Positions 17,391 through 55,100 of a stretch of 64,000 bases of DNA are shown here, in pieces. The notes under the pieces were generated by a model. That model was not told the DNA's origin. It worked only from the letters and a program-made list of their open reading frames with translations, and searched no databases. Source of the stretch: Zingiber officinale (lineage: Eukaryota > Streptophyta > Magnoliopsida > Zingiberales > Zingiberaceae); the NCBI RefSeq assembly GCF_018446385.1, contig NC_055989.1, forward strand, positions 131,901,004 through 131,965,003, read 5' to 3'. Each line of letters begins with the position of its first letter. Position 1 is the first letter of the stretch. The position numbers and the translations under genes are program-made.

Positions 17391-17399
17391 CAAATTTAA

Positions 17400-26449: not shown

Positions 26450-27030
26450 CCAACACCTTAAAATCCCCATGAATTTTGTATGCCACGATAGTGTGGACGT
26501 ATACAAAAACAAAGAGGAGATTTTATTCATTAATTTTATTATCTCGTCATCCTAACTTTATGACCAATAAAATTAATAGTTGGTCTATCAAATATTTTGG
26601 TCACTAACTTTGAATTTAAAATAATATTGATTCCTTAAAACAATATCATTTAAATTCACCAACACCTCAAACACCGTGAATTTTGTATGCCACGATAGTG
26701 TGGACGTATACAAATTCAAACATTTGTAAGAGGAGGGTTTTACCCATTAATTATCTTGTCAATAAGTCTTTATGACAAATAAAATTACCTCAAACACCGT
26801 GAATTTTGTATGCCACGATAGTGTGGACGTTTACAAAACCAAACATTTGTAAGAGGAGTTTTCCCATTAATTTTATTTCCTTGTCAAATTGACAAATAAA
26901 ATTACCTCATACATCATGAATTTTTGTATGCCACGATAGTGTGGGCGTATACAAAATCTCAACATTTGTAAGAGGGGGTTTTAATTTTATTATCTTGTCA
27001 GCCTATCTTTATGACAAATTAATAGTTGGT
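26450..27030 (-). repeat. Four-copy tandem repeat inside the copia piece
   Basis: The block TTTTGTATGCCACGATAGTG with GTGGACGTATACAAA-like continuation occurs at 26473, 26680, 26803 and 26920, each followed by AACATTTGTAAGAGGAG- and TTAATTTTATTATCTTGTCA-like sequence. Spacings are about 207, 123 and 117 bp. Lies in the leader/gag side of the element. Confidence 0.85.
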
Positions 27031-27923
27031 TTTCTTCGGTCACACAAATAATAGCAGTGACTCCGATGGAGAGGATACTATTAGACGTGCCTAAGTGTAT
27101 ACCATTACTTGACACTAAGTCCATTAATAAGATTATGCCCCTTCCGATGGGGAAGATCATACGCTCTTAATTAATTTCCTATAGTCATCCTAAATGGAAG
27201 TTTGATCTAGTGATCCGCAAACAAACTCATCCGATATGGAGGAAGGCACTCAGAGCCAACGCGCAAGTTTGTTTGCATCACTTACAAACCAGTAATGAAG
27301 ACCGTGAAATTTATTAAAATAAATCCCTCTCCCACTTAGTTATTTAAAGTGAGGAATTTTAAGTAATCGTAGCATACATCACATGCATACACACATATCA
27401 CAGTAAATAAAGCAATAAATATGGAAATTATTTTCCAACTATTATGCCCTTTTCCTGTTACTGTTCTCCATGTGCTCCAACCCTAGCTGCTGTCATCTTT
27501 AGCCACCGCCATTGGGTCGAGTTGTCGCATCCATCTTGCTTCTTATTCCGCTGCGCCTCTGGTGCTCCAAAAGTACCACTCCTCAAGAATCCGATCCGCA
27601 ACAAAATTAGAATTTTACATATATCGATCCTATATTCCACGAGAGAATGTACATGTAATCTAGATCGAAAATAAAATTCTAAAATCCTAGGGCTAATACA
27701 GCTCCTGCTGTATTAGTTACATACAATCATGCACACACAAAATAATGCCCTTGACATGTCCAAGGGTCCAATCACACACAACATCTATAAGCCATAATAG
27801 TTGGATCCTGCAACCACAAAGTTGGCACATCCTACTATTATCCTGCCTAAATTATGTATGACATGTGCATAACCTAATTTGAAAACCAAACACACAGAGG
27901 CAAACCCTAGCTCTGATACCAAT

Positions 27924-30532
27924 TGTTGGTTAGTCCTAAGAAAATCGTACCGGTTCCACTGTACAAAATTTTTTTTGTACAAGTGTCGAACCTTTCCTTA
28001 AATAACCTATTGTGTTCTTTAGAAGTTAAATTAGGAATCACAGACGAAACTTAACATCATTGATTCCAAATTTAACTTATCTGTTCTTAATGGTTTAGAT
28101 TTGAATCGCAAGCGGAACTTAACACTATTGATTCAAATCTACCTAAGTTATTAATTTCATATATATTAATTTCCAAAATCGGCTTCCAAGATTGCATGGC
28201 GAGGCACATGACCTTCTTGGATATGGGAGCAACCACCACCGCCTAGGCAAAGCCTTTTAAGGAAAGATAATATTTATTTCCTTAAATAACTCTAGGTTAA
28301 CCAAAAAGAATAATCGAATCACAAATTCGAAAAAAATAAAAGAAAAGAAACACAACTTCAAAACAAATCCGAAAACTCTAGAATCATATGCCTCTTGTGT
28401 TTGGTATTTCCAAAAATAACTTATACAAAGAAAACTAGTATGATGCGGAAAATAATTACTAGTTATACCTTTCTTTGTAAGCAAAAATAACCTCTTGATC
28501 TTCTACCGTATTCCTCTTCTAACCTCGGACGTTGTGTGGGCAACGATCCTTCGAGACGAGAACCACCAAGCACCTTCTTCTTCCTTCTAGGTTTCGGCCA
28601 CCACAATTCTCCAAGAGAAGTAGAGGTCCGGCCACCACCATCAAACTCCAAGGGATGCAAGAAACAAAACCTCCTTTCTCTCCTTCTTCTCCTAGCTAGA
28701 ACCGGCCACCATCAAGAACTCCAAGAGGGGTTGTCGCTGGCCACAAGAAGAAGAGAAGAGGGAGAAGCTAAGGCCGGCCACCAAGGAGGAAAAGGGAGGA
28801 GAAGAATAATAGAGTTGTCCTTCATGAAGGCACCTCTACCCCTTCTTTTATAATTCTTGGTCTTGGCAAATAAGAAAATTTAAATAAAAAACTTCCTTAA
28901 TTCTTTTGCCATGAAAAGGAAAATTTATTTAATTAAAAATAATTTTCTCTTCTCAATATACATGGCCGACCACTTATTTCCTCAAAATAAGGAGAGTTTT
29001 AACTAATTAAAACTTCCTAATTTGTCTCCAGAAATTTATAAAAATTTCTCCAATAATTTTAATCCCTTCATGATTGGTTAGTAAAAAGGGAATTTTATAA
29101 ATTAAAATCTTTCTTTTAAACATGTGGATAAAAAAAAAGTTATCTCTAAAAATTAAAATATCTTTTAATCTTCAAATAAGGAAAGATATCAAATCTTTTC
29201 TTAATCTTTTGTAGAAACTTATAAAAGAGAATATTTAATTTTTAAACTCTCTTTTAAATCATGAACATGGTTTAAAAAAGAAAGTTTTCTCAAAATTAAA
29301 ATTTCCTTTCAATCTACAAATAAGGAAAGATTTTAAATCTTTTCTTAATCTTTTGTAGAAAGCTATAAAAGGAAAGATTTAAATTTTAAACTCTCTTTTA
29401 AAACTATGATATCCACATAAGAAATAATTTTAATTAAAAATAAATTTCCTTTTAATATGGTCGTCCAATCAAGCTTGGGCTCCAAGCTATGGCCGACCAA
29501 TTAACTTGGCTCAACCTTTGGGTCTTGGCCGGCCCTAGCTTGGGTTCCAAGCTAGCTTGGCCGGCCACCAAAGAGTGGGTAAGAAGGTGGGTATGTGGTG
29601 GGTATAAATCTCTATATACAAGAGGCTACGATAGGGACCGAGAGGAGGAATTGGTTTTGGTCTCCCGATGAAATTAAGCTTCCCGTGTTCGCCCCGAACA
29701 CACAACTTAATTCCATCAATAATAATTCATTCCACTAAAGAACTATTATTGAACTACCGCACCAATCCCAAATTACATTTTGGGCTCCTTCTTATTATGA
29801 GTGTGTTAGTCTCCCTGTGTTTAAGATGTCAAATGTCCACTAATTAAATGAGTTACTGATAACTCACTTAATTAATATCTTAGTCCAAGAGTAGTACCAC
29901 TCAACCTTATCGTCATGTCGGACTAAGTCCACCTGCAGGGTTTAACATGACAATCCTTATGAGCTCCTCTTGGGGACATTATCAACCTAGATCACTAGGA
30001 CACAATTTCCTTCTATAATCAACAACGCATATTATAAGTGATATCATTTCCCAACTTATCAGGCTTATTGATTTATCGAACTAAATCTCACCCATTGATA
30101 AATTAAATAAATAAATATCAAATATATGTGCTTGTTATTATATTAAGATTAAAAGCACATACTTCCATAATAACTGAGGTCTTTGTTCTTTTATAAAGTC
30201 AGTATAAAAAGAAACGACCTCTAATGGTCCTACTCAATACACTCTAAGTGTACTAGTGTAATTATATAGTTAAGATAAACTAATACCTAATTACACTATA
30301 AAACCTTCCAATGGTTTGTTCCTTTCTATTTTTGGTCGTGAGCTACTGTTTATAATTTATAAGGTGCTGATAACATGATCCTCTGTGTGTGACACCACAC
30401 ACCATGTTATCTACAATATAAATTAATTGAACAATCTACATTTATCATAAATGTAGACATTTGACCAATGTGATTCTTATTTCTAGATAAATGTTTATTC
30501 CAAGAGCTAGGCTTTTAGTATACATCCTAACA
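27924..30532 (-). repeat. Copia LTR, 2609 bp
   Basis: On the minus strand it starts TGTTAGGATGTATACTAAAA and ends CTAACCAACA. It matches the plus-oriented solo LTR at 35185-37775; by hand about 20 differences in the first ~250 bp. Includes many GGCCGGCC words and GAAGAAG-rich stretches that create long but meaningless open frames (28460-28850). Confidence 0.9.
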
Positions 30533-30557
30533 CGAAGGTGGTGACCTGCTTATTGAG

Positions 30558-32450
30558 TCAAGCCAGTAGAGTGACCTGCTCTGCACTCTTTCCCCGTTCG
30601 GTCTCGAGCAGCTTGGTGCTCTTCTCCAGATTGGCCCACAGTTTAGCCACCTCAGCGTTCGTCTGCTCCTGAGAGATGGAGGATTGGCCGATCGACGCCT
30701 TTATTTTCTTAACTTCCTCCTCCAAAAAGGCGAGTCTTTGGTACATGGCCAGACTCTCTATCCAATACTACGAATAATCAAGAAGTCGACTGGGGAATAG
30801 ATTGAGAAAATACAAGAAAATACAACACTTATCCCAGTAGATCGGGTGTGGTTGTTTGCAAGCGCCTCAGGAGGCATCACCACCACACGGGCTCGGGCGT
30901 CTGCCCATATCTGTGCGAGCGGCCCCTAGATAATTATTTGGTGCTCGAGGTTTCGGGATGCTGTGCTCGCTGACTCACGCCATTCTTCAATCGACAGGTG
31001 AAGAACTGCCGTTATACGACGCTGGTCGCTTGGGGCTGACTGGGCAGAGGTAGCTCGTCCGGACGGGCGGGACGAGGATGCCAGACATATATTGGACTTT
31101 TTGACTTTGGAAGGTGATGGCATGAAGGTCACCGGTGGCACGCAGATGGTACCTTGCGGCAGGCCGGACAGTGATGGTGTCCGATCCGACGATGTGGAGC
31201 AGTGATCTCTTGAGCAGGAGTGGGGGTTGAAGTTTCAACCCGCTTAGCAGACCGCACCACCGAAGATGCGGAGCATGATGAAGGCTTCGCCCAATGCCTC
31301 TTATGCCTGATAAGTGGCTCTCCTGAGGAGGTCGAGCCTGACACCCCCTCGATCTGGACGACCGGTTGCCGTTCGGAGGGAGGATGGGATCCACTAGTCT
31401 CTCCACCACTCGCCAAGACTGGAGTCACCTCGCTCTCATCTTGGGGGTCTTCTTGGGAGACGACCGGCTGCAGGCTACGACTCTCCAACTCCTCCGCAGC
31501 TGGCGCATTGATCGCGACATCAGCAAGCTTAACCTTGTCGGCTAGACACGCACGTAGCATGACTTCGGCTAGAAAAGAGGAAGAAAAATCAGTTAGAATC
31601 AAAAGAAAGAGTGAAGAAGTTGCATACCTAGGATGGGCGGAATCCGGGTATGGATCGGACTCAAGCCGAAGATATAGAGGGCACCCTCTAGCAGCACCTT
31701 ATGGATGTCGTATTTCTGACCGACCAACATTGAGGTTGCGTCGAGGTAGTCCGATCGGCTCTTGTACTATTTTAGGGGAGGCTGATTTTCCACTTCGAGC
31801 TGCCAGTGGGTCGAGAAGTAAGGCTGCTCGGGAAAGCATACAAAAAAGAAGTATTCCCTCCAGTGTTTGTTGGAGGTCGACATCTTGTCAAAGAAAACCA
31901 AGCTCACTCGGACATAGAAAAGGAAAGCCCCCAGCTCAGACAATTTTGGATAATAAAAATATTGGAAGATTCGGAAAGTGAGAGAAATGTCGTACAGGTG
32001 GAAAAGAATAACTACTTCGCACAGCAGCCGAAAGGAGTTCGACACTAGTTGATGAAGGGAGATGCGAAAATATTTACAAACAGTGGGGAAAAAGGGATGA
32101 ATGGGAAACCGCAGACTGGTGGTAAACTGATCTCTAAAGAAGGTAAGACAGTGGGGCGGTGGAGAATTTGGTCGATCAGAGGGAGAAGGAAGAACAACTT
32201 TGTAGCCGCGAGAAAACTCAAAGGTGACCGTCAATCTCTCAGCATCGCCGGCGTCAAACCTGGACTCAGTAGATGTGTACCAAAGCCCAGGGTCACCGAC
32301 AGGCGGCTGTGAGGAACTCACCATCGTAAAAAACACAAAGGATGTGTGAGAGGAAGGAAGGTCACCGGAATATCGCCGAAACACAAAGAAACGACGAAAA
32401 ACCAGAAGGAAGATGACGATGGAAGGAAGCTTACAGAGAAAGGTCACCGG
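30558..32450 (-). pseudogene. Antisense ORF region of the Tat-type gypsy element (fossil)
   Basis: Between integrase and the 3' LTR, the minus strand has open frames of coherent composition. The upstream one (32447-31767) includes SLRFPIHPFFPTVCKYF, SNSFRLLCEVVILF and similar blocks, like the plant 'putative gypsy-type transposon' domain (PF04195, from memory). The downstream end (30746-30558) is a predicted coiled coil (LEEEVKKIKASI). Tat/Retand elements are known for an extra ORF in this place and sense. The region is broken in several places. Confidence 0.65.
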
Positions 32451-33080
32451 AGAAACTGGAAGGGAGAAGTGTCATCGGAGCACAAAGTAGTTGGCACCGA
32501 AGAGCTCGAAGATGAAGATGCGAAGGAGGTAGCGATGACGCGCACGGGATTATAAGCCCCAGGGTTAGTCGACCGGAGCCGACCGATCTAGGTCAGGCAG
32601 AGATCGGGTCGTTGAATTTGAAGGGTCAAACGTCACATTACCAGCGGATATCTGCCTGTCACGTCAAGCATGCAGCGGTAGCAAGCGAGACACTTGGCGC
32701 CTCACCACAGGCTGACATTTAAGGAGGGCAATTAAGAGGCATGGGAGAGTGCTCAGCCATCATGAGTCGGAAGTTGCACGGTCTCCCAGAAATATGACTG
32801 ACGTAAGCCTGGATTACGCTCGTCCAAGACAACCCAAGAAAAGATTTCATAAGTACAGATGTTCGTTGTGTCGCGGCTTAAGGGAGCAGACCTACGACAG
32901 AACGACAAGTTTCAACAGGTCGATCGGCAGAGAGCGGTCACATAGCCAACTGTTATGCTACGTTATCCCGATCAAAAACCAAGGAGTGTCGAAGTCGATC
33001 GGGTGGCATACTTCATAGACAATTTTGTTTAGTCAGTCGGACTTGCAGCCTCCTTTGACTAGATTTGAGGGGGAGGCATG

Positions 33081-34024
33081 TGATGCGATGATAAGGGGGG
33101 CCCACCCCATGGAGGATAGCTACCACGGTGGAGGTCAAGTCATGGTGGTCAACGCTCAGATATCATCGGGCGGTCGAACGATCAGGTCAACGCTCAGATA
33201 TCATCGATCAGTAGGGGCTACCATGCTCCGATTAGGGGAGAGTGTTCCGGTTCGACCTCACCTTTGACACGGGGAGGTGTCAAAGGACCGACACTTAATG
33301 GAGTATTAAACGCCGGACGGAAGAAGAAACGATGTGTAGAAGCCGGGCTGAGCGGCTACCCCTCTTAGCCAGATAGTAGGACTCGACTGCAGAGTGGAAC
33401 GTCTGCCGAGCGGATGTGACACAGGCATAGTGGAATTCCGGCCGAGCAGACATGACACAAGCACAGTGGAGTTCCGGCCGAGTGGACAGGACACTGGAAC
33501 AACGAAGTTATGATCGAGCGGCCAACCCGCTCGGCCTACCAGCATACTCTCTCTCTAGTATCCATCGACATCCTTTTGGGAATTAGTGCTGCCGACACTG
33601 AGCATGGACAACCAGAAGATCGTACGGTGGAAACTTCCACTATCACTTCAGAGATATGCTCGGCCTGTTGAGGTACTGTGTCAGAGACACTTTACTGACA
33701 AGTCTTTTCAAGGAAAACTTTAGGAAGCATGCTCACCACGAGGAGCGTGCACACGCACCACAGGAGCTCTATATAAAGGGTGGTCCAAGCATCGACGGAG
33801 GTATGTAATACGCGATAGACATTGTTCTCGCTATTGTTCATTTTGTTCTGCATTCTACTTCATCGTTGGTAATTGATTTGAGCGTCAGAGGGCTAACGCC
33901 AGGGACCCCTTCCCTGGCTCGACACTGACGTAATCTGTGTTGTAGGTCCGAGCGGAGTCCACAAGAGGTCAGTGGGAGCGTCACATTCCCGGCTTTCCAT
34001 CTCATCGACTTTCGGATAGGATTA
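33081..34024 (+). repeat. 3' LTR of the gypsy element
   Basis: A 944-bp LTR starting TGATGCGATGATAAGG directly after the purine-rich GAGGGGGAGGCATG and ending GGATTA, followed by the target duplication GGTAC. Counterpart of 17941-18892. Confidence 0.9.
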
Positions 34025-34029
34025 GGTAC

Positions 34030-35184
34030 GATACTCATTTATGATTGGCCAGATTTATTAGAACTTAAAGCGATGATGAGCTTGATACAAATGTTGAGCT
34101 CGAAGGTTTCTTTAAGCACGAGTAAAGGTGGTTGTTTGTTTCTCTTTGTATGCAATAAATGTTATTACTGTTTCCTCACCAGTTTTATAGAACTTGTGTA
34201 CAGCTCTGCAAAATTTGTTAATTTGCATTTGTGTTTCTTCCCAAGTGTTATAAATGTCAGGCTTTCGTCTAACAAACACAACATATGTTTTGCCTTATAA
34301 TAGCAATAAATTTTTTCTAACTTATTTCCAAAATATAATAAATAATCAAAAACTGAAATTGAAATAAAATGACTCACCATATCCAAACTTATTTACTCCT
34401 CTTTCTTTTTCTCATACTTGGTTTTGATGATCACGATGTATTTTCCAGTCCGCTTGTATAGGGGAAAAAATCACGTTAGAAACACATGTTCATTCCGTTA
34501 ATTATAAACAACAAAGTTAACGAGAAGGATATATTTAGACACATTTAAAAATATAAGAGACGCATTCAACATCTGGAATTGTTTAGGGATAAAATTAAGA
34601 CATGATTGAAACAATATGGATTTAATGAATGATCTTGTGTATTTATAATCATATATCTTTCAATTCTTCAATTAAAGAAGATAAAACACAAACACAGTTA
34701 TAAAATTATAATTTAATCACTAAAACTAATTTTATTCGAGCTGGCAGAATTGACACCGTAAAAAATTAGAATAATTTATGTATTCATACCATAAAGTACA
34801 AATTCTAAAAATTTTGGGGCATTAAAGTGTTTAGATAGAGTACATTATTCAATTTATTGATAATCACTATAAAACAACTCACATATTTCATTCATTCCTT
34901 AAATTGAAAAAGATGCAATACAAACTCATTCATAAAATTATAATTCTAAAAAACCTAATTTTATTCAACCTAACAAAATTGACAATATTCATGAATTAAA
35001 GCTTCAATTTTTCACATCATTTAACAGAGATGTACACAAACAATAATCTTAATTTTATTCTACTAATAGGAATAATAAATCAGTCAAAATTTAATGCACA
35101 AAAACATAACTTATCTTCTACTCAAATACGTTTGTTTCTACCTTCACAATACAACGCAAACCTCCGTCGTGATGACCTTGGGTC
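34030..35184. repeat. Target-site flank with right part of the ~230-bp tandem repeat
   Basis: The first ~500 bp are AT-rich with no recognised feature. From about 34640 to 35010 two diverged copies of the repeat seen at 17400-17760 are present: TTATTGATAATCACTAT at 34856 and TTCATAAAATTATAATTCTAAAAA-like blocks about 225 bp apart. No gene is supported. Confidence 0.55.
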
Positions 35185-37775
35185 TGTTAGGATGTATACT
35201 AAAAGCCTAGCTTTTGGTATAAACATTTATCTAGAAATAAGAATCACATTGGTCAAATGTCTACATTTATGATAAATGTAGTTGCTCAATTAATTTATAT
35301 TGAAGATAACATGGTGTGTGATGTCATACACAGAAGATCATGCTATCGGTTCCTTATAAATTATAAATAGTAGCTCACGACCAAGATGGAAAGGAACAAA
35401 CCATTGGAACGTCGTAGTGTAATTAGGTATTAGTTTATCTTAACTATATAATTACACTAGTACACTTAGAGTGTATTGAGTAGGACCATTTGAGTTCATT
35501 CCTTTTATACTGACTTTATAAAGGAACAAAGACCTCAATTATTATGGAAGTGTGTGCTCTTAATCCTAATATAATAACAAGCACATATATTTGATATTTA
35601 TTTCTTTAATTTATCAATGGGTGAGATTTAGTTCGATGAATCAATAAGCTCGATAAGTTGGGAAATGATATCACTTATAGTGTGTGTTGTTGATTATAGA
35701 AGGAAACTGTGTCCTAGAGATACTAGGTTGAGAATGTCCCCAAGAGGAGCTCAAAAGGATTGTCATGTTAAACCCTGCAGGTGGACTTAGTCCGACATGA
35801 CGATGAAGTTGAGTGGTACTACTCTTGGAGCTAGATATTAATTAAGTGAGTTGTCAGTAACTTACTTAATTAGTGGGCATTTGTTATCTTAAACACAGGG
35901 AGACTAACACACTCATAATAAGAAGGAGCCCAAAAATGTAATTTGGGATTGGTGCGGTAGTTCAATAATAATTCTCTAGTGGAATGAATTATTATTGATA
36001 AAATTAAGTTGTGTGTTCGGGGCGAACACGGGATGCTTAATTTTATCGGGAGACCAAAACCAATTCCTCCTCTCGGTCCCTATCGTAGCTTCTTAATTAT
36101 AGAGTACTATACCCACCTATACCCACCTTCTTACCCATCCTATAGGGGGCCGGCCAAGCTAGCTTGGATACCAAGCTAGGGTCGGCCATGTTTTGGTTCA
36201 TGGGTGAATTCATATGGCCGGCCCTAGCTTGAACTCAAGCTTTGGTGGCCGACACTATTAAAATAAAAAGGAATTTTATTTTTAAAATTTTTCTTATGTG
36301 GATAACATGATTTAAAAGAGAGTTTAAAATTTTAAATCTTTCCTTTTATAAGATTCTACAAAAGATTAAGAGAAGAGTTAAATCTCTTTCCTTATTTGTA
36401 GATTAAAAGGTTGATTTTAATTTTGGTAAAAAATTTCCTTTTAATCATGTTCATGATTTAAAAGAGAGTTTAAAAATTAAATATCTCTTTTATAAAGCTT
36501 CTACAAAGATTAAGAAAAGATTAGATATCTTTCCTTATTTGTAGATTGGAAGATATTTTAATTTTTAAAGATAAATTTCTTTTTATCCACATGTTTAAAA
36601 GAAATATTTTAATTTATAAAATTTCCTTTTTATTGACCATCATGAAGGGAAAAATTATTAGAGAAATTTTTTATAAAATTTCCGGAAACAAATTAGGAAA
36701 GTTTTAATTCTTGATTGAATTAAATTTCCTTTGCTTGGTTTAAAGTGGTCGGCCACATTGTTGATGAGAAAAAATTATTTTTAATTAAATAAATTTTCCT
36801 TATCAATGGCAAAAGAATTAAGGAAATTTTTATTTAAATTTCCTTATTTGCCAAGGCCAAGGATTATAAAAGAGAGGGTAGAGGTGCCTTCATGGCTAAC
36901 AACTCTATTATTTTTCCTCTCTCTTTTTCTTCCTTGGTGTGGCCGGCCATCCTCTCCTCCTTTCTTCTCTTTGATGGCCGAACCTCATCCTTCTTGTGGA
37001 GACTCATATGGTGGCCGGATCAAGTTTAGAGAAGAAGAAGAAGGAGGAGAGAAAGAAAGCTTTGTTTCTAGCATCCCTTGGAGCATGGTGGTGGTGGCCG
37101 AACCTCTTCATCCTAGAAGAAGTTTTGATGGCCGAAACTTGCAAGGAAGAAGAAGGTGCTTGGTGGTTCTCATCTCGGAAGATCGTTGCCCACACAACGT
37201 CCGAGGTTAGAAGAGGAATACGATAGAAGATCAAGAGGGCTTTCTAAAAGGTATAACTAGTATTTTTCCTTTCCGCATCATACTAGTTATTTTTGGAAAT
37301 AATACCAAATACAAGAGGCATACGATTTTAGTGTTTCGAATTTGTTTTCGATATAGTGTTCTTTTGTTTTTATTTTCCTTGTGATTTGATTGTTCTTTTT
37401 GGTTGACATAAAGTTATTTTAGGAAATTAAATATTAGCTTTCCATAAAAGGTTTTGTCTAGTCGGTGGTGGTTGCTCCCATATCCAAGAAGGCCATGTGC
37501 CTCGCCACGTCAGTACTGGGAACCAATTATGGAAATTAATATTTAATGAAATTAATAACTTAAGGTGATTTGGATCGAACGTGTTAAGTTCCGCAGGAGA
37601 TCCAAGTCAAAACCTAAAAGAACAAATAGATTAAGTTTTGGATCAAACGTGTTAAGTTCCGCAGGCGATCCAAAATTTAATTTAAAAGAACACATGGTAG
37701 CTAGGAAAAGGTTCAGACCTTTGTACAAAATTTTTGTACAGTGAAACCTCTAGGCTTTCCGAGTAGCAACCAACA
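35185..37775 (+). mobile_element. Solo LTR of the same copia family (fossil)
   Basis: A 2591-bp LTR starting TGTTAGGATGTATACTAAAA and ending AGTAGCAACCAACA, plus orientation, collinear with the inverted copy at 27924-30532. No internal copia sequence adjoins either side. Flanks are GGGTC (35180-35184) and AGATC (37776-37780): an imperfect match, so either the target duplication has decayed or the LTR was formed by recombination between two copies. Open frames inside (36806-37226) are LTR composition artefacts. Confidence 0.88.
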
Positions 37776-38510
37776 AGATCGGGTACGACGAAGGCGCTGG
37801 GGGCGAGCGTTTCGTCTTTTTGGCACAATAATATAACGCAAACTACTTCTTCATATTAGTAGTACTTTAGTTGTTTTGATTACTACCTTCTTACTTCTTC
37901 AGACATGACATTTGTCAATGATCCTTAAGTTTAAGGTGAAAGACGGATTTTGCCGCCTCTCCAATTTTTGTGTTCACCATCAAAGAAATTATTTTGGATA
38001 GTCATCTACAATTTAGGGTGGAAGTCCAGGAGGGAGTTAATTGGAAGTCGAAGAAATATAAAATAAGTCAGAGGAGAATAAAATGAGGATGAAATTTTGA
38101 TAAATTGAAACAGATTAGGGAGTAGAAAAAGTAAAAAGAGATTTTATCAGGGAGTGCAGACATATTTTGTCTGAGTCAGGATTGAAGAGGAAGTTAGAGC
38201 TATGATTCGGAATTTAAAGATATTTACTATTGTTCCAATTGTTAGGTGCAATACTTTATATGATAAAATATAATAAATGGCGCCTTTTTAATTTTCTTCT
38301 AAATTGTAGTGACCAACTGCAATGGCCAAGCTTTTCGATTTAAATCATAAGGTTTTTTTTTTAAAAAAAAAAAATACAGCGGTGGACAGCGTTTTAAGAT
38401 CTTTTATATATATATATATATATTACTTATAGTATTTTCCATATTTGGTATATAATATTAAAGTATTTTTTCAATAAAGAGACAATTAGGTTGTTAATTA
38501 ATAAAATAAA
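37776..38510. other. Spacer between copia solo LTR and hAT element
   Basis: Mixed then AT-rich sequence with a short (TA)n run near 38403-38422. No coding or structural feature recognised. Confidence 0.5.
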
Positions 38511-39800: not shown

Positions 39801-41930
39801 ATGGATGGTAGTAGTGGTACTGGTAGCAATGCAAATTCATCTGCGGGACCATTTACTAGTGAAGAATCTGCAAGCCAAAGTCATAGACAGAAAGCGGATA
39901 TAGCATGGGCTCATGTTTCTGAAGGTGTAAATGCACAAGGAAGAAAAACTATGACATGCATTTATTGTCACAAGACATTTGCGGGTGGGGGTATATTTAG
40001 GATGAAGCAACACTTAGCGGGAGCAAGGGGTAGCATTATTTCTTGTGGAAAGGTTCCACCACAAGTTAGGCATGCTATTTGAGTAACCTTGAAAGATATT
40101 TTTGAGAAGAAAAAAGGAAAAAGAAAAAAAAAGAGGAGAATTTGGGGTAAAAAATCCATTTGGTTGATATGTAGATGAATTTGATGGCGATGAAGTCCAA
40201 GAAATTCCCATTATTCACACTAAAGGAATTACAATCAATGAGGCAAGTGCACCATCTGATAAAGGAAAGCGAAAAGCCACTACACTAGGCCCAGGTATAC
40301 ATAATTTCTTTAAAGGTGGAAATGATAATTCACAACCCACTATCAAGGCTATTTTGCAAAGTAAAGAAAAATGACACAACTGTGATATGGCTATTGGCTG
40401 TTGGTTTTATGATGCTTGCATTCCTATAAATGCTGTTAACTCTCCATTTTTTCAAAAAGCTATTGATCAAATAACATTAATGGGTCATGGGTATAAAGCT
40501 CCATCTTATTATGATCTGCAAGTGCCTTTGTTGAGAGAAGCTAAGAAAGATTTGGCTTTACTTATTGATTCATTTCGAAGTATTTGGACTGAAACTGGTT
40601 GCACTATAATGGGTGATGGGTGAAAGGCAGTAGACAAAGACCATTGATTAATTTTTTGGTTTACTGTCCTAAAGGTATATCTTTCATCAAATTTGTTGAT
40701 ACATCTGATGTTGAGACAAATGCACATAATTTGTGTAATTTATTTGTTGAAATTGTTGAAATCGTTGGTCTAAGAAATGTGATGCATATGGTTACTAATA
40801 ATGCTAGCAATTATAAGGTTGCTGGAACTCTACTAAGTGAAAAATACCCAACCATTTGTTGGTCTCCATGTGCTGCACATTGCAACAATTTAATTTTAAA
40901 GGATATTGGTCAAATGAATGATGTGAAAGCCATAATATCACTTGCTTCAACTGTGACTGTATTTATGTATAGCCATAAGTACACTTTAAATTGGTTGAGA
41001 AAGACAAAAGGGTAGAAGGAGATTATTTGTCCAGGAGAAACTAGATTTGCAACTACTTTTATTGCATTAAAAAGTTTGCATGATCACAAAGATAGTTTGC
41101 AAGTTCTAATCACCAGTGGAGATTACAAAAAGTTCTTGAAAATAGACAAAGGAAAAGAGGTTAAGCAAATTGTTTTGGATGAAAAGTTTTGGAATAATTA
41201 TTTGATTACAATGAGGATTATGGGCCAACTTATTCGTCTTTTGCATGTTTATGACACTGATGAAAGACCTTCTTTGGGTTATGTCTATGAGGGCATGTAT
41301 AGAGCAATTAATGACATCAAGAAGCTCTTTAAAAACAAAGAGAGATCCTACAAGCCTTATACTGACATAATCAATGAAAGATGGGATAGAATGTTGAGAA
41401 AGAATCTTCAAGCTACTGCTTATTATTTGAATCCTGCTTTTCAATATGATCCCACATTTTCTATCCATCCAGAGATCACAAATGGTTTGTTTGATTACAT
41501 AGAATCAAAGGTAGATTGGTGTAGTTTGGATGTATTAACATATGAGATTGGTATGTTTCGAGATCGTCAAGGGAGTTTTGGGCGAAAATCTGCTATTCTT
41601 AGCAGCCAAAAAAATCGTCCAGGTAATAATTTTTTATTATATTAAGTCTTTTGAAAAAAAAGTATTTATTATTTAGTTTTCTTTATCTAATATTCTAATA
41701 TTCACTGTGATTGTGGTAGAGAGTTAGTGGAAGCTCTTTGGTTGTGATGCTTAAAATTTACAAAAGCTTGCAATTAGGATTTTGGGTCAAACAACTTCTT
41801 CTTCTAGATGTGAACGAAATTGGAGTGTTTTTGAACGTATTCATACAAAAAAAGGAATAGATTAGAGCATCAGAGACTTAATGATTTTGTATATGTGCAT
41901 TATAATTTGCGATTGCAAAATAGGTACATC
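39801..41930 (+). pseudogene. hAT transposase remnant (BED finger, DUF659, dimerisation region)
   Basis: The BED zinc finger lies at about 39890-40080 (WAHVSEGVNAQGRKTMTC, CIYCHKTF, then a His-containing RMKQHLAG). DUF659 spans about 40387-41000 (ACIPINAVNSPFF, VTNNASNYKVAG, WSPCAAHCNNLILKDI). A further block at 41076-41645 (RIMGQLIRLLHVYDTDERP, ERWDRMLRKNLQATAYYLNP) precedes an intron and the hAT C-terminal dimerisation block near 41760-41930 (CERNWSVFERIHTKKR). It is dead: a TGA follows HAI at 40080-40082, one base is missing in a Trp codon at about 40621, and a TAG replaces Trp at 41013-41015. Confidence 0.88.
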
Positions 41931-43114: not shown

Positions 43115-46100
43115 ATGTTCTCGTGGTTTGGCCTATGGAGATCCAGGAACCGCTTCTCGCTAGACGAGCTCCAGTGTGTCAATCCATCCTTTTTTTATGA
43201 GTTCATTTTTTTTTTTTTTGGGTTGCTTGCATTTTTCCTTGGGGCCGTTGAGCTTATTGAAAATTTGGGTTGCGTAAGTTGCCTTGTTATTATTTCTCTG
43301 CTGTTCAAGTTTATCCATTTTTAAAGATTACGAACTGAAATTGAGAAACCTCTTTGTTTAATTCTCCTGGTTATCAAAGAACGGATACTTACTAGTTGAC
43401 ATGAGCTTGAAGGTACTCACGTTCCTGAATAGAAATTTTTCGTTTGCAGTGTCAGCATTTTGAACCTAATGGTTCCACTTTCTAATCGAAAACAGCAGGC
43501 TTAGTAATAACAAGCAAGAGGCGACGAGCATTTAACTGAGAACAGTCTTTATAGTTTAACTATCTTCTAACCAAGTGCATATGCCTTGATTATTTGTTCT
43601 TCAGCATCAAACATCTAGAATTTTGATTTCTCAACATTCGGTCTGGAAGCCAACTTGGATGTGATGTTGGCTATTAAATGCTAAGAATGATCTTGATGAT
43701 TGTTAAGAATGATCTCGATGCAATGTTTGATGGGCGGAGTTGAAAAGGACTTAATGATGATGGCTGTTAATATTTGTTATTCCATATTATGAAGTGTTGC
43801 GAGCTGATCCATGAGGCAAATGATTGCTAGGGGTAAAAACCCTGAACCATACGTAATGGAAATCTTCTTTAAACTCATTTTCAAGCAAAAAGGATTCCTT
43901 GTTCAATATGCAAGAAGTAACTTTGTAGAAATTCGGGATAATTCATTAAAATGTCCCTAATGTTTCAATCTAGTCCTGATTATGTCCCTATAGTTTGTTC
44001 TGAGCCATTTATATCCCTCATGTTTTACAAGTTATCCCAAATATATCCCCACCGTCAACTCCTCTGTTAACGAATACTGAATCAGTCACGTGATAGCCAC
44101 GTGACTAACCTGTGACGGGATTCTTAAAGAAAAAACGGAGAAACTCGGCTTCGCTTCGTCTTATTTCCCAATCCCCCTACCCTAAACCCTTATTTCCCAA
44201 TCCCCCTACCCTAAACCCTAATTCTCACAGGATCACTGACGGTGAAGTCGCCGGGCGGTGAAGACGTCTAACTCTGGCTGTGAAGACGTCTAACTCACGA
44301 ATGACGATGGTACCATGAACACATCGGTAAGTTGTCTATGAATGTGCTTTAACATTTGATTCATTCAAATGGCGGGCAAAATGTGACTTTGCATCTTGAT
44401 TTAGAGGAGTTGAGGGGATCTTGGAGTTGAGGAGACCAGATCTGATGGGCTAACAAGCGGACTGGAAAACAAATCGTGATCATCAAAACCGAGCAAGAGA
44501 AGGAAGAAGAGTAAATAAGTTTGGAAATGGTGAGCCATTTTATTGTACTTTGGAAAATTTTGTTGCAATTATAGAGAAAGACAAAGACATATGTTGTGTT
44601 TGTTGGACGGAGTCCTGGTGTTTATAGCACTTGGGAGGAAACACATATGCAAGTTAACAAATTTAGCGGAGTTGTACACAAGTCCTATAAAACTAGTGAG
44701 GAAGCAATAGCAGCATTTACTGCAAACAAAGAGAAACAATCTACTACCTTTACTCGTGCTGAAAAGAAACCTTCGACCTCAACTTCCAGATCAAGCTCAA
44801 CAGCTGCTTCAAGTTCTAGTAAACCTGACCAATCTGAGATGCTAGCTAAACTTATGGATGCACAGTTAGAGTTAGCAAATGAGCATCGTAACCATTGTTT
44901 AAAGGTTGTAGGGATGTTTGAGGAAATAGAACAATAATTGAAATCTCTCTGTGTTAGAGATGATGCCAAGTAGTTTTTTTTTATGGTGTAATGAAGGTTT
45001 GAAATCTCTCTGTGTTAGAGATGATGCCAAATAGTTTTTTTTTATGGTGTAATGAAGGTTGATTGATGTATTGAGATAAACATCAAGTTTCTTTTTCACT
45101 TCATTGAAATGTTATGGTTATCATTTAAGAGATCATCTAGGAAATAGAATGGAAATCATTGGCTAAATTGTAAAAGGCTTGTCATTGAGCAATGATCTAG
45201 CCAAGATCATTTGGATCAAATCTAATTCTTGGTACATGCATCTATAACTTCAAGAACTATTATCTTGATAAAAAAAGATGATTGTCTCATTGGTTGCTCA
45301 TTAAAACCTCCTATTTTTCTGATAGATTTGTGCAGAAAAATGATTTGCATATAGACGTGGCAAATAATACTCAGAGACAAGTTCGTTGTGATCAAACACA
45401 GTACTCAGACAAGTTTTGTGACCAAATAAGGGAACTGCCAAGTTCACAAAAAAATAGACTAAGATAGTTTCTACAATGCATCTACTACATTACATTTATT
45501 GAAATGCATTACATCTGAAATGCATCTATAAAAAATTATCCCAATACACCACTGCATTACATCTATTGAAATGCATCTACAAAAAATTATTCCAAAACAC
45601 CACTGCATTACATCTACTGATTCTGAAGATTCACAATCGAAGATTCTAAAGCACATGTAGTTGATTTAGTCTTCGAAACAAGCCTAGCATTTTCATGGCT
45701 CTTCTTTCTTTGATTAGCTAACGATGACCTGAGTCCAGAAAGAGTCACAAAGTTTTTCCCCCCTTCACGATGCTCTGATCAGCTAACGATGCTCCGGCTC
45801 CAATTGATCTCGATCTCCCTCTTGCTCCATTTTTCCCACCACAAACTGACCTTCTCACCTGTGTAAAGCATAATAAGGAATCTTATTAATTAACAACTTA
45901 ACAGCAGATTGTACAACAAAACTAGAAATTCGGATATTAACAACAAGCAACTTAATAGCAGAATATTAACAACAACTTAAATAGCAGCAGGTCTGCCCAC
46001 TTTCAAAGTAGAATATTAAAAGCAAGCAACATAAAGCATAATAGCATCAAAGCATAACAACAACTTAAATAATATGGATTAAAAATTGAAACCAAGAATA

Positions 46101-49100
46101 AAATTCGAATATCCAAACTTGTAATTTTTTCCTTTTAATTTGGCTTGAATCAACAATAGGCGTTGTTTGGCTTTGTTGTGTCGAATGTTCTTGCATAGTT
46201 TCTTGGTTCCCTGGGTTCTTTGCATGTCCTTTGTTATGGCCAAATTCTCCACATGTTTTGTATTTATTATTTCTTCTTGCTCCATGTAGTGTGTTTTACT
46301 AGAACTAGGAGGTTCATCTCTTTCCCTCCTTTGCAATTTAGCAAGTCTACCCACTTTCTCTTTAAATATCAGAGGTAGTGGAGATGACAATGAACATTCC
46401 TATTCAGGCCATAAATCAGAACTAGTAATTGGCAAAATAGATTTCTCGTAGCATTTCTGATATGTCTCAACCCCATAATAGGAATGCACGTAATCAAGTG
46501 GATCTTGATACTTGTACCAAATTGCACACACCACATTTTGGCATGGGATGCCAGTCAAGTCCCATATGCAATTGCACGAATTTGCACCAAAGTTGACTAT
46601 GTGCTGACTAGATGGTCCATTGATTTGGAAATGCATATGATCAGCTTGTATCAAACTATGTTGTGTCGCGTCATTGCAATTTTGTGCCAAAACCTTTATA
46701 ATTTTTGGACAAATCTTGTTGTCCCATATCTCAGCCTTTTCTCTGTTAAGTTGAAATCGAACCATGAGCAAATTTCTTATACCTTCAAACATCAGAATAA
46801 TTGGCTTCTCTCTGGCCTCCAAGATAAAACTGTTGAAGCACTCGCACATATTATTCAAAAGTGCATCACATTTGGGGGTTTTTGGTAAAATGTGACTTGG
46901 ACCAATGTTCCTCGAGTTTCTTAGCCAACCACTCGTACGCTTTCACATCAATTTATTTCATCTCTTCCATCCTATGACGAAATTCTACAATTGTTGTTGC
47001 TTTGGCTGCCCAAAGTGAATTTCTAATAGACATACCTGGAAACCCTTCCCTTTTCATGTTAGTATGCAAATGCCTAGCACAAAAACAATTCTCAGTAGCA
47101 GGAAACAAACTTTCGAATGTCGAAATCAGCCCCTTTTGTTTGTCTGACATGAATGTCCATCCATGTCCATCTCCAATGGCTATTTCAGTGTCCAACAACT
47201 GCAGAAACCACATCCACCTGTCTTTTGTTTCTCTTTCAACCAAGGCATAGCAAATAGAGAAGATATAATTGTTGGGATCTAGCCCAACTGTTGCCAACAA
47301 TTGTCCACCATTCTTACTTTTAAGAAAGCATCCATCAACACCAACAAGAGGTCTACATGCTTTCTTAAATCCTTCTTTGCATGCAGAAAAACAAACGTAC
47401 ATACGTTGAAACCTTGGACCATCTTCATCCTCAGTTAATTTTAAAATGACTCTGGCACTTGGATCTACCCTCATCAACTCTGCACAATAATTTCGGATCC
47501 TACTAAATTGTTGGCTAACAGACTCCTAAAGCATTTCAAGAGCTTTCCTCTTAGCCAAGTAAGCTCTTTTCCTCGAAACACTCAATCTTAAGCTATCGAA
47601 AATCTCATCTTTGAAAGCTATAGTCCCCAAATTTGAGTTCGATTTAAACTTGTTGACAAAAGTCTTTCCTAGCCAAGTTGAGCTTGCAGTTCTATTAGCA
47701 TTATCCCAAAAACAATTGTTGTGTTTGGATTGAAAACTCTTAATCTGCCAACAACTATCATGGCCCATTGGCAACACATGAATCACCCAATCACAACTTT
47801 CATTTCTGCACTTTCCCTGCAACCTCTTCTTATCAACTTTAACGAACCTAACAAACCGTCCCCATCTGATGCAATGACTTTCAATGACAAACTTAGCTTC
47901 ATCTCTTGAGCTAAAAATCATACCAACCTGCAAGTCAGGGTTCTCTGCATCCTTAATGGGGTTGAACAAAGGAATTGTTTGGGCTTCATAATCATCATCA
48001 TAATAACCCACATTACTAACCAATTCATTAATATCAACACAATTAACATCGCCTTATACATTGTGCTAAAATATTGATATACTTAGTAATCATTAAGAAT
48101 AAAAAACTTATAAATATTGATAATATGTGCAAACAATCCTTAAACAAGATGCGCAAAAAACCAACTTGCATGTTAAATAAAACCTCATTCCGAATTACTC
48201 CATTATCAATAGCCGCTCTATTGTCCAATATTTCGGCATCATGATCAACGTGACTATAAAAAATCCTATCATCTTCATCAAACTCATACCCACTGTCATG
48301 AAAATCTTCATCGTCCTCATCATCTGATCCACTTCCATCAACATTTGATTCAATTCCAATCTCATTTGGTTCTCCAACATTATCTGTAAATAAAAAATAA
48401 ATACACAAAAACAAGTTTTATAAGTGTCATCTAACAAGTAATTAAACAACAAATATATAATTAAAATTATGAAAAAAGAATAGAAAATACCATAGTCCGG
48501 GGTGAATTGCAACAAGCGTTTACTTCGTCTAGCCATCAAAACCCAATAAATGTATCTTCACTGTTCAATAGAATCAAATTATTAGTTGTAGATCCTAAAG
48601 TTTTCTAACTTGTAAGATTGATCACAAAACATAGTTTTCTTGTAGGACTTACCAATTTGTGCTCCCAACGTTGTTAAACGTTGCCTGTAAAGTCGGCAAC
48701 CAAAGTGTGATGTATTAAACGAAGGTGTTAAACGTCTTCACCACCGTGGATCCCATGGCGAATTAGTAGGCTATCATGGGGGGAATAACATGGCGCCGAA
48801 GGGTTGATACAAGAGGGATTAGGGGGATCCTGGAGATAGACGTCTTCACCGCTGGAGTTAGACGTCTTCACTGCCCGATGACTTCACCGCCAACGATCCC
48901 ACGAGAATTAGGGTTTAGGGTAGGGGGGATCAAGAAATAAGATGAAGCGAAGCCAATCTTCTCTGTTTTTTCTTTAAGAATCCTGTCACAGGTTAGTCAT
49001 GTGGCTACCACATGAATGATTCTGTATCAGTTAACAAAGGAGTTGACGGTGGGGATATATTTGGGATAATTGGTAAAACATGAGGGATATAAATGGCTCA

Positions 49101-52100
49101 GAACAAACTATAGGGACATAATCAGGACTAGATTGAAACATTAGGGACATTTTAATGAATTATCCCTAGAAATTCACATTGACAAGTATAATACAAAGGG
49201 CAGTTAGAGCTGGACGTAACATACTGACATTATATAACTAAATGTAACCCAGTCCAAGTGGTGGCCCGTGTAGGCCCACTCTGCAGATCACACACATGAA
49301 CTACTCCATTTACAGACGTCAAGCGTCCTTTGACAATGTTGACTCACCTAAGTTAGAATGCACATCATTTTTTTTTCAAGTGCTTTGGTCAATATCAAAA
49401 GGGAGTTGCAGCTATCGCACAATATACTTCAACACATCATTGAAGATTTCACATCTTGAGAATAAGATCTCAAATCCTCGATCACATTATTGATAATTAG
49501 CCCAGAAATCATTAACGTGGTTATACCTTATGAAGGCCTATGTACTATAGCAGATTTTTCCCTCTTTAAATAAATAAGATAGATGAATATAACAGATTAG
49601 AATTAAATGATTGGCACTCCTTGTTTGGCTTCAATCTGGATCAACCAATTAAATGTACATTACATATTTTTGGGATTAAACCCAAGCCCTTCTCATCTTC
49701 TCACAAGAAGTCTCTTGAGAATCACCATCATCATTATCATACTGTGTTTATCCTAACTATTTTTGGTTGGCTACATGAATCTTTTCCCTCGAATAATATG
49801 AAAGGGTGTATGACTAGTAAATATTCAAATCAATCAAATCATTTTTTATTTAATTAATGATTTTCTCAATCTTGTTTTACAATAAACTCAATTATTCTAT
49901 CTATAATATCTCACCTTCAGTGTCAATATACCATCACAATCTATTTTTTTTTCCTACACCTCATTGCTCTTGGATACTATTATTTGTTCATTTGATTCTT
50001 TTTTCTTAAGTCCACATGTCATTCTTATTTATTGAATATTAACTTTTTGTATCAGTTACTTCTCAACATCCAAAAATTCTTAAAACCATAAAGCGCTGTG
50101 TAGTTTATCATAATCTTATAAAAATTTTATTCTAGCCTAAGCGGCACTGGACAATAATATATCATCCTATTAAATGCCCCTTATATTGTTCCAAGATATC
50201 TAAATATATTACATATAGTCACCATATCCATCTATCTATTTATTCCATCAATTTTTTTTATGTCTGAAACTACATCTCATATATTCAGATTTCATTCTAA
50301 TTTTCATTAAACCACTAGTTTCCAAAGTTTTTCTTCAAAACTCAAGCTTCAAATTCAATCTGTTAACATTATAAACAATTAATACAATATGCAAATGAAT
50401 AACTTGCTCAAAAGGGGTTTCCCTTGGATATAATTGGTTACTTCATCAAGAGAAATAGGGATTTAGTGATCCTTGATGCAAACCTATAACTATAGGAAAA
50501 TCATTTGTCAACTCTCAGTGGCTAGAAAAATCTGCCGAGAGACTTCAAGTGTGAATCCCTACAAACTCAATGCTTAGCTCTTTAAATAGTCAAGAATTCA
50601 TAAATTTTACCCATTTACACACATCATGCAATATATTATACTGAGATGATCAAATCATCAACAAGGTTATGTGGTTATTCAATCAATGAAGATCAAGCAG
50701 TAAATATTGCATTGACTTCTCCATTTAACACATAACACATGACTTCTTTTGATCATGGACCAAAAATTCTTAGGATTAGAATTAATCTACCACATCGTCG
50801 GGCATGTACAGGTGCTGGACATGTGGCTTAAGGGCCATTACCCTATAATTACCTCCTCTCATGGGTGTTTCTCTGTCCAACAGGACTTAGTTACAATATC
50901 AGATGGGATCAAATCCAGCATAGGTTGGCCCAATTTTAGTAGTCTTGACTCTTGATCTTTGACATCCATCCTGTTTCAGATATTATCTTCCCTGACGATG
51001 AAGACTGAGCTCCACTATTCACCTTCTTTGGTCTCTCACAACTTTGAGGAAGCCAACTTGTGGCTCAAATATCTTGTCCACTGATCTGCTGTACTTTCCT
51101 AGTTGAGTAAATTGGCTTCCTCATGAGCTTGATCTACCAGTCTCCTCAATAATGATACTGATGGTAGTATTATGTATATCGAGCTTTTAAATATTTTGCT
51201 GATGTTTCTGAACTAGTGAAGATTAGCTGTTCGAAGTTCTGAGTTTATCCTCTCAAATTGTTTTGGATTTAAACCATAGTAACTCTGCATAAGAGATGGT
51301 TTGATTGTACAGACTCTCAGTTACATGTACTTTTATGAATGTCAAATAGTCCTTGAAGGCATTATATTCACAAAGCCAGAGATACATAAAGGGGACTAGG
51401 ATGTTCAGTGTATGATTAAGTAATTAACTTTGATTTTGGTCCTTGTTAAGAAAATAACTAATTGTCTACGATACTTTCATTGTCTTTTTTTTAGTTGGCA
51501 CCAGAATCCAACTTACGCCGACTAATCCTAGGTGACCGGCCCGGCTCCACAGAAGTTTTCCACTGGACACTAAGTCATCAGGGTTAGGCGGCCCATTAGC
51601 CCAACGTTCTTAGGTCAACCACCAATTAAGAAAAATTCATCGTAGATGCCTGAGAAGGCGTCCTGCCGCTGCACCATTGCCCTGGGGCACTTTCATTATC
51701 TTTAAACTTTACAAACTGGTGTTTTTCTGATTAATTTAGATTCAGTTATTAATTTGATGTTCTTGATCCAAATTGTTTTGAAGTTACCAAAAGCCTCCTT
51801 GAAAATTGATATTTTTCTCTCATTATGAACATGCTTGGCCATGTCTCTGACACAATTGTATTTCTTCAAATTATTCTTGTTTCTGAGTCAATGCACAGTA
51901 TAATTTCTGCTATTTAATATATATAATTCTGCACCATTTGGTACAGATATCTAACAGATCAGTTGCAAAGGGTTCAATATGTGAATGATGCTAACAAGGT
52001 AATTATTTGCTTGATTTGTTTTATACATCCAAGCTTCTCTTGTTAATGTTCATATGTAATGTTCTTCATGAAGGATTCTGTTATCGAAGTGTTGAGATCT

Positions 52101-55100
52101 ATTGCTGAACTGGTAACTTATGGTGATCAACATGATCCATCAATATTTGAGTGAGTTCTTACTTCTTAGGTTGCTTCAGTCCCTTTTATCTATTGGTATT
52201 AAAGCTATATCCTTGTTTGTCTATTAGGTTCTTCATGGAGAAGCAGATTTTGGGTGAATTTGCACGAATATTGCGGATTAGCAAGATGGCAAAGGTTGCA
52301 ATTCAGTTGTTACAGACTATCAGCATTATGATACAGAATTTAGAAAGTGAACCTTCAATCTGTAAGTTCATTTATAACATGTCGTCAACACGTCAGAGCA
52401 TTACTAATTATCACCTTTTGGTCTTTATCATGATTTTCACTTCCCTTGCAGATTACATTTTCAGTAACGAACTCATTAGTTACCTCATCACATATTCCTT
52501 TGACTTTCAAAATGATGAACTATTGTCTTACTACATATCCTTCATAAGGTTTGTTTCTTTATTTTGTCTGTGTGAATGCATATTTTATCTTAATACTTGT
52601 CTACCTCCTATTCTATTTTGTCTGGTACATTGCTCAATTACATGGATTTTAACTTTGAAGGGCAATCAGTGGGAAGTTGAACAGGAGTGCAATCTCATTG
52701 CTTGTGAAGATTAAAAATGTAACAGTTTCTTTCTTAATCCTATATTGGTTTTTGGTCAAGTAGTATAATAGATTTGAGATCGGTACAAGTAATAACCTTG
52801 GAATAATGCTCTAGGTACGTATGACAAGAAGAAAGGTTGAGTGATATGTTATAGCAAGGTTCTGCATTTGTTTTGGGATAATTTTTTTTTTCAATTTTAT
52901 TTTTCAAAGAAAAGAATTTTTAAACTTTACATGAAAATAAATGCAATCAAAATAAAAGATAAGCAATCATATCTCATTTATCAGGAAGACCAATCCTTCT
53001 TTCTGTAATTTTTTTTTATCATATAGGAAGTTAAAAGGATACTCACAAACATGTCTCATTTACTTTTATTTTCATAATTTTCCTTGGAAAAACACAGGCT
53101 TAAAGGTTGTAAACTTAATTCAACTTTTATATTTATACATATCTCATTATGCTATAACTTATTTTGCTTCCTTCAACATCTTTACATGGGAACAATTCAA
53201 GTAAATTTAATAGTATGGGGTTGTATTGTACTTACAAGTACTCAATTTAGCACATATGTTTTCTTTAATTTGCCTGTCATTTCCTTTTCAATAGGAAGAA
53301 ATTGTTTCGTTTCCACTTTATGTCGAGGCCATACGGTTCGCCTTCCATGATGAAAATATGATTCGAATTGCTGTTCATGCTTTAACACTGAATGTCTATC
53401 ATGGTAAGTTGGTAAGGCCTCATATCCTGTTACCGTTTTTTCCCCTCTTTTGCTGTTGCTGCTTTAAAATGTTGTTCTCATTGTTCCTCTTCTATCTTCT
53501 CAGTTGGAGATGAATATGTGAATAAATTCGTAGTACGCAGCCCACAATCTGATTATTTTTCCAGTATTGTGAGACACTTTTTAAAGCGATGTATTAACTT
53601 GGATGAGATTATAGTTCAAGCTTCTAGGTGAGACTACTACTTTATTCCTTTTGTAGTATGTCTACCCCTTCTATTTCAATTTTTAACATAGTTGTGCCCA
53701 TTTAAGTTATGGCATCCTAGATTGTTTTGGTTGCTCTTTAATAGTATAGGTTCTTTCTACCCAAATATTCATGGTGAATGAAAGAAACTTGTTTATATAT
53801 TTTGTTATTTTCTTCACGGCTTTCATTATGTTAACATCATGTTCCTCTAACTTGTGGGCAGGAAGTTAGATGCATCTGATTCAAGTTCTTCAATTCTCAA
53901 TGCTGTAGATGATATTGAAGACGATCTTTATTATTTTAGTGATGTTATATCTTCAGGAGTTCCTGATCTTGGAAGATTGCTTACTGATAATATATTGCAG
54001 CTTTTAGTTTTTCCTTTTCTTCTGCCCTCTTTAAGAAAGCAAAATTCTGTAAGTATCTTCATTAGTAACCATCAACAAGTGTTTGTAAATTTTTGTAGTT
54101 TTTGTTTTGCTAATTCATCATTTGCTGGTCTAGGGCACAAGAATTCGCATTGCAACCTCCTTACATCTACTTTGCAGTATATTACACATTTTTAAGACCA
54201 AGGATCTGGCCAGTACTATTGCTGCAGCTTTTTTCTGTCCTATAGAGGCTTTTGTCACAATATCTGAAGCCACAATAAATGGCAGTGATACTGATCAATA
54301 TGTTCGTCAGGATTCACAAGAGCTTGGTGCTTGTCATTGGGCTGCTCAAGTGGATATAGAAAATTCAGAATCTCCTTCTCCTAATTCAAGTCAATCTTCT
54401 TCAGCAATCGAAAATTCTGGTTCATATTTTACATTGAGGTAATTCATACTTAAGTTTTTTTCTTTTGCAAACAAAAATAATTGTTTAAATATTCTTTGTT
54501 GATCAAACCATGGTTCAATATGTTAGTGAGGTATTGACTGGTTTATCTGTCAGATATTAAATGTGCATCAAGTTGAACATAGATTAATTTTAAGTGTTTT
54601 ATATTAAGTTAATATAACTAAATTTCAATATTAAAATGATGCAATTGAATATGTTTTAGAATAATTGAGTTTTTTTAAAGTAAATTTTGTATAATATGAA
54701 TATTTTAGTTTTTTTCAATATTAATAAGTGATTGTAAAATATTAAAAATATAATCACGAAAAATAATTGTTATATAGATATTAGGTATTAATTTATAAAA
54801 ATACCTTGGCATTGCATGGGTTAAAAACTAGTATTGAATAACACATTCTTTATGAATTAACTTTAATTTGTGGCTTGGGAATCCAAAATTTGAATACCAA
54901 TATTACCTTGGTTTATGTTAAGTTTATCCTCCTAATAATTTTAATCTTGTGCATAAGTGTATATATGTACTGCTGCAGTGATTTTTAAATAAAGAATGAC
55001 TTTCAGTTAAATATAGTGGCTGCTTGATGATGACTGTTTTTAGGGCCGTAAATGAACCAAGCTAAGCCAAGCTTTACCGTATTTGTTTGATAAGGTAACT

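Follow-up and report, generated by a model that had tools for sequence, protein, structure and literature searches.

A gene for an RNase H1-type hybrid-binding domain in the second-gene position of a MuDR-type Mutator-like element

In a Mutator-like element (MULE) of Zingiber officinale, an undamaged reading frame for the hybrid-binding domain (HBD) of RNase H1 lies beside a broken transposase gene. Does this HBD gene belong to the transposon lineage as an accessory gene, or was it captured once and then carried along? We address this question in a stretch of 64,000 nucleotides (contig NC_055989.1, positions 131,901,004 to 131,965,003 of the forward strand), hereafter the window, whose numbering is used throughout.

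The element and its HBD gene

MULE-1 is a Mutator-type element at 43935-49166 with terminal inverted repeats (TIRs) of approximately 360 bp. Its left TIR (43935-44296, + strand) and right TIR (48833-49166, - strand) were delimited by self-alignment and by an exact match of the ends: GGGATAATTCATTAAAATGTCCCTAATGTTTC is present at 43935-43966 (+) and at 49135-49166 (-), with a mean of 0.00 in shuffles (n = 100). The inverted arms comprise one stretch of 262 nt with 90% identity and another of 95 nt with 86%, and align with gaps over 362 columns at 83.4%. A perfect 9-bp target-site duplication, TAGAAATTC, borders the element on the left (43926-43934) and on the right (49167-49175), within the 9-11 bp used as a MULE criterion. 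The broken transposase gene (46079-48550, - strand) is convergent with the HBD gene and encodes DBD_Tnp_Mut (E = 1.3e-6) and MULE (E = 7e-16) domains in Pfam. Three-frame translation, read by eye, places in-frame stops near 47528, 46955, and 46402, one frameshift between 46955 and 46880, and a second, probable one near 46290. A SWIM-like CxC...PCxN stretch was also recognized by eye, at which Pfam gave no match. Long TIRs, a 9-bp target-site duplication, and a Mutator-type transposase, albeit broken, are thus all present, and the first-pass annotation was right to describe a MULE with proven ends and target duplication and a dead transposase.

The element sits within a host gene that encodes an FPL domain, in an intron between exon-like frames at 43115-43175 and 52151-52711 (+); the latter frame matches Pfam FPL with an E value of 5.1e-19. 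The exon-1-like frame at 43115 (MFSWFGLWRSRNRFSLDEL) presumably belongs to a GFS9/TT9/CLEC16A-like gene. The left TIR includes tandem duplications at 44160-44217 (29 bp) and 44254-44296 (22 bp).

The HBD gene is located on the + strand at the left end of MULE-1 and runs towards the transposase gene. Its presumed leader (44452-44529), which is 88.5% identical to that of the second copy described below over 78 columns, ends with an ATG at 44527-44529 that abuts the splice donor GTGAGC. A 45-nt intron (44530-44574, GTGAGC...TATAG, acceptor AG at 44574) is proposed from the splice signals, and the donor is kept in the second copy. Splicing at 44529/44575, as predicted from these signals, is plausible and would give a product beginning M-RKTKTYVVF. 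An alternative strong donor, TCG/GTAAGT, occurs at 44327 upstream of the ATG, and a different first exon is possible. Exon 2 (44575-44937) comprises an undamaged frame of 120 codons (44575-44934; 363 nt with the stop, which extends to 44937). A 3' flank at 44938-45060, which has a homolog in the second copy, consists of a tandemly doubled 61-bp unit.

Residues 4-46 of the HBD protein match Pfam Cauli_VI (PF01693) with an E value of 1.5e-15 and 57.6 bits against a gathering threshold of 21 bits, covering profile positions 1-43 of 44. Among PDB sequences, the RNase H1 domains 1qhk (5.9e-5), 3bsu (6.4e-4), and 6vrd (0.0078) rank on top, and RNase H1 chains are the only matches below an E value of 0.01; the three gp41 chains that follow (E = 0.09-0.11) are non-significant. 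The domain is followed by a Ser-rich linker and a predicted C-terminal helix (residues 86-119) with a mid-helix pLDDT of about 86-90 in a single-sequence AlphaFold model that is poor overall (mean pLDDT 54.5, domain mostly below 50) and usable for this helix alone. Pfam found no nuclease domain in the frame and no other match above the cut-off, including the C-terminal part. The NCBIfam RNase H model matches over the first 76 of its 211 positions only, and the C-terminal catalytic RNase H domain is absent by both Pfam and NCBIfam; the protein is not an RNase H1 enzyme. A plant mobile domain gave no Pfam match at E values up to 1, and a PHROGs profile search gave no significant match. The hybrid-binding module without a nuclease, the linker and helix behind it, and the intact frame opposite the transposase, all of which had been noticed from the sequence at the outset, are borne out, the helix by a low-confidence model.

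The length of the open frame was dropped as evidence for the gene, since 69 out of 300 random elements with the size and composition of MULE-1 contain an uninterrupted frame of 120 codons or more, and such a length is unremarkable. Unlike this length, the Cauli_VI match is, by profile comparison, beyond chance.

The domain was compared with an outgroup set of 12 domains, namely those of yeast and human and ten encoded by RNase H genes of plasmids and phages. In the alignment, the MULE-1 domain retains the human RNase H1 residues Y29, R35, W43, F53, and K59; we take K59 to be among the residues used by the human domain. F58 is changed to His, R57 to Val, and K60 to Ser, the last of which is also found in nine of the 12 outgroups. 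The roles of the aligned human residues other than K59 are given in the cited passages of PMC9603397. According to excerpts of PMC7657459, the HBDs of human and Drosophila have a high affinity for RNA/DNA hybrids and a lower one for dsRNA, whereas the yeast domain favors dsRNA. As far as the alignment can tell, the HBD protein of MULE-1 likely binds RNA-containing duplexes.

A second copy and the age of the gene

A BLAST search of MULE-1 against the window identified a second copy of the HBD gene on the - strand in two pieces, 34457-34043 (76.6% identity) and 17945-17829 (82%), and no third copy in the window. Each piece adjoins a TIR match in the correct orientation (34634-34471, 63.5%, E = 8.5e-9; 17676-17721, 78%, E = 2.4e-5). 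Alignment to MULE-1 shows that part one of copy 2 (34025-34635, -) contains the terminal repeat (34634-34471, aligned with the left TIR), the leader, the ATG at 34380-34378, the donor, and the gene's 5' part, and that part two (17660-17940, -) contains the 3' end of the gene, the 3' flank, and, at 17676-17721, the terminal repeat of the opposite end. Between them lies a Gypsy-type LTR retrotransposon (17941-34024, +) inserted in the gene and recognized by its LTRs, target duplication, and gag and integrase matches. Its LTRs (17941-18892, 952 bp; 33081-34024, 944 bp) are 86.2% identical with a Kimura two-parameter (K2P) distance of 0.157, and its target duplication GGTAC is found at 17936-17940 and 34025-34029.

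After excision of the retrotransposon in silico, copy 2 is collinear with MULE-1 from the leader through the 3' flank. It is a short TIR-HBD gene-TIR unit without a transposase, with the gene at the same end and in the same orientation as in MULE-1. The distance from the gene start to the element end is about 590 bp in MULE-1 and about 255 bp in copy 2. Leader, ATG, and donor are kept; lesions comprise two 1-nt deletions, a gap of approximately 40 nt, an altered acceptor region, and the retrotransposon itself. No target duplication of copy 2 was recognizable by eye. Its flanks (17380-17660 and 34637-35190) are related repeat units with 68-73% identity, and copy 2 therefore appears to be located in a repeated array. 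Both MULE-1 and copy 2 look like decaying relics.

Other repeats were observed in this part of the window. The retrotransposon includes a - strand frame matching Transposase_28 (31770-32471), and an inverted 2.6-kb pair with 84.5% identity has one member inside it (27923-30532) and the other outside (35185-37776). Degraded element frames at 40617-41642 (+) match DUF659 (E = 1.1e-33) and presumably derive from a hAT-like element.

The TIRs of MULE-1 and copy 2 are 64-78% alike, and their HBD genes about 80-84%. Both copies carry His in place of human F58, in a column that is Tyr or Phe in all 12 outgroup domains, and Tyr in place of human F61, where the outgroups have Phe. The same end, orientation, leader, and donor, together with the diverged TIRs and the shared His, indicate that the HBD gene is older than the split between MULE-1 and copy 2. 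The first-pass annotation had proposed that the gene would be no one-off capture if several MULE copies were to have it at the same position; copy 2, a TIR-bounded second MULE with the gene at the corresponding place, supports this within the window, the evidence on its spread being two copies in one window.

Domain decay and selection on the frame

The Pfam Cauli_VI score was 59.8 bits for MULE-1 and 38.0 bits for the copy 2 piece. With a leave-one-out profile of the 12 outgroups, the outgroups themselves score 98.5-124.8, MULE-1 96.1, and copy 2 68.8. The copies differ at eight conserved columns (≥75%), of which six show the conserved residue in MULE-1 and two in copy 2 (p = 0.29), and the fit to the outgroups is better in MULE-1 at 13 of the 19 differing sites (sign test p = 0.17; Wilcoxon p = 0.02). 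Neutral drift simulated from MULE-1 at approximately 0.10-0.125 substitutions per site lowers the score by a median of 26-33, and copy 2 shows a drop of 31. From the profile scores, the site comparison, and the drift simulation, the MULE-1 domain is nearly intact and that of copy 2 looks decayed. This asymmetry is weak evidence, compatible with a lineage protein that may have been kept until recently.

Between the two copies, differences in 100 aligned codons amount to 19, 15, and 13 at the three codon positions. NG86 over these codons gave a dN of 0.180 and a dS of 0.159 (ratio 1.13, bootstrap 0.58-2.95), YN00 over all codons gave 0.196/0.134, and NG86 restricted to the domain part (59 codons) gave 0.168/0.182 (bootstrap 0.35-3.45). 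The K2P distances are 0.204 and 0.180 for the two parts of the frame, 0.126 for the leader, and 0.204-0.227 for the 3' flank, so that by this measure the frame of the two copies shows no more conservation than the sequence on either side. The LTR distance of 0.157 implies about 0.08 of neutral change on the copy 2 branch since the retrotransposon insertion. The absence of detectable purifying selection between the two copies therefore comes from a test of low power: copy 2 is a pseudogene, disrupted at least since that insertion, and earlier constraint would be hidden. The chance that a 363-nt frame is free of lesions is 0.47 or 0.39, given four or five lesions in the approximately 1950 nt of the transposase. 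A dN/dS of about 1, a frame no more conserved than its surroundings, and this chance intactness together give no sign of selection. The first-pass annotation had taken the survival of the frame next to a dead transposase as a hint of selection; this is thus not sustained, with flanks at least as conserved as the frame, and the comparison of dN/dS among copies that it had proposed gives about 1 for the two copies (bootstrap 0.58-2.95).

Accessory gene or passenger

The layout of MULE-1 is of the known MuDR kind. As with mudrB of MuDR and other antisense ORFs, the second gene lies opposite the transposase end and is convergent with it, in an element with long TIRs and a 9-bp target duplication. 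In plant MUDR groups, elements usually have a second ORF in antisense, in most cases one with a plant mobile domain (Dupeyron et al. 2019, PMC6446971); the cited passages of that paper call the role of MURB unknown. The MULE-1 protein differs in its domain, an RNase H1 HBD, and section 6, Table 1, and a term search of the main text of PMC6446971 yielded no mention of an RNase H1-type domain. Other MULE lineages also have accessory genes: VANC and VANB in the Arabidopsis VANDAL elements, VANC being anti-silencing (PMC5735166, in part), and the ULP1 genes of Kaonashi (PMC13317346, in part). Their domains are other than an HBD, and VANC binds specific DNA motifs, according to the same extracts. 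A DNA-transposon gene with the pfam01693 (Cauli_VI) domain is capE of the fungal Helitron helpo1.3, and genes of this type are described in the passages seen of PMC4289320 as confined to helitron boundaries; it differs in belonging to a Helitron, in a fungus, in a single long copy with different gene neighbors. By sequence, the MULE domain shares its fold family with the RNase H1 HBD and the dsR domain of the caulimovirus transactivator TAV, a family that binds RNA/DNA hybrids and, weakly, dsRNA (excerpts of PMC7657459, PMC9603397, and PMC5902531), but the gene lacks both the catalytic RNase H domain and the TAV regions. Copy 2, as TIR-gene-TIR without a transposase, resembles a Pack-MULE, whereas MULE-1 has the gene together with a (broken) transposase.

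Searches for relatives returned eight pattern matches to the HBD protein in the collection viral_contigs and 102 in genome_contigs, none of them a true relative. Exact DNA patterns of the gene had no match in viral_contigs; an 18-base TIR pattern matched one viral contig there. A 16-base leader pattern gave chance bacterial matches among the matches listed in genome_contigs and is too short. By blastn, nothing in 130 other loci matched the element, and the HBD protein matched only the ten RNase H pieces among them. In the open-access literature searched, we found no MULE with a Cauli_VI or RNase H1 HBD, the nearest case being the fungal Helitron gene. As far as these searches go, the HBD protein is new for the second-gene slot.

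We propose that the HBD gene resides in a MuDR-type MULE lineage as its second gene, occupying the slot of mudrB and plant-mobile-domain genes. It would be, or would have been, transcribed from the TIR, with a leader ending in the ATG at the intron. The protein would bind RNA/DNA hybrids and, with lower affinity, dsRNA; the C-terminal helix may allow it to do so as a dimer. As an accessory factor devoid of catalytic activity, it may act on hybrids or on RNA derived from the TIRs, for example by shielding them from RNase H or the silencing machinery, by analogy with VANC. That the gene is lineage-resident and more than passive cargo has, in our estimate, about an even chance. The specific molecular role as a hybrid or dsRNA shield is doubtful, and a shade more so is the full scenario in which a monocot MULE lineage recruited a free-standing HBD as a TIR-driven gene that guards R-loops or TIR hairpin RNA in a VANC-like manner and is mobilized even in TIR-gene-TIR units. 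The counterpart domain of the caulimovirus TAV is dispensable for RNAi suppression (PMC5902531, cited in part), which argues against inferring silencing suppression from the domain alone.

The main rival to a resident second gene is a one-time capture, before the split of the two copies, of exon 1 from a host gene encoding an RNase H1 N-terminal domain, followed by passive Pack-MULE-style amplification that never served the transposon. The dN/dS of about 1, a frame no better conserved than its flanks, and the transposase-free, Pack-MULE-like copy 2 speak for it, and MULEs commonly capture genes (PMC6446971 and PMC13317346, passages cited). Yet, unlike a truncated RNase H1, the frame comes with a leader, a start, and a stop of its own and with a non-nuclease C-terminal part, most conserved domain columns are kept in MULE-1, and the dN/dS estimate has low power with a copy 2 that became a pseudogene no later than the retrotransposon insertion. 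We consider passive amplification a serious possibility, somewhat short of even. Were the MULE-1 frame instead a working gene selected after the death of the transposase, through host use or trans-mobilization, its undamaged 120 codons and nearly intact domain would be expected, but intactness by chance (0.39-0.47 at the lesion density of the transposase) and a dN/dS of about 1 make this very unlikely. A derivation from the TAV (ORF VI) of a plant-integrated caulimovirus rather than from host RNase H1 appears just as improbable, or slightly more so: the same Pfam domain occurs in TAV (PMC7102451, in part), but the best NCBIfam match, in a prokaryotic library, is an RNase H model.

Few accessory proteins are known for how MULEs and other DNA transposons cope with host silencing. 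If the HBD gene proves to be only passive cargo, it still illustrates clearly how a MULE lineage amplifies a single gene. The presence of a Cauli_VI domain in two unlike transposon types, a plant MULE and the fungal Helitron of PMC4289320 (as described in part of that paper), widens the question. A nuclease-free transposon HBD, if a true accessory, would implicate RNA/DNA hybrids or TIR-derived dsRNA as its target.
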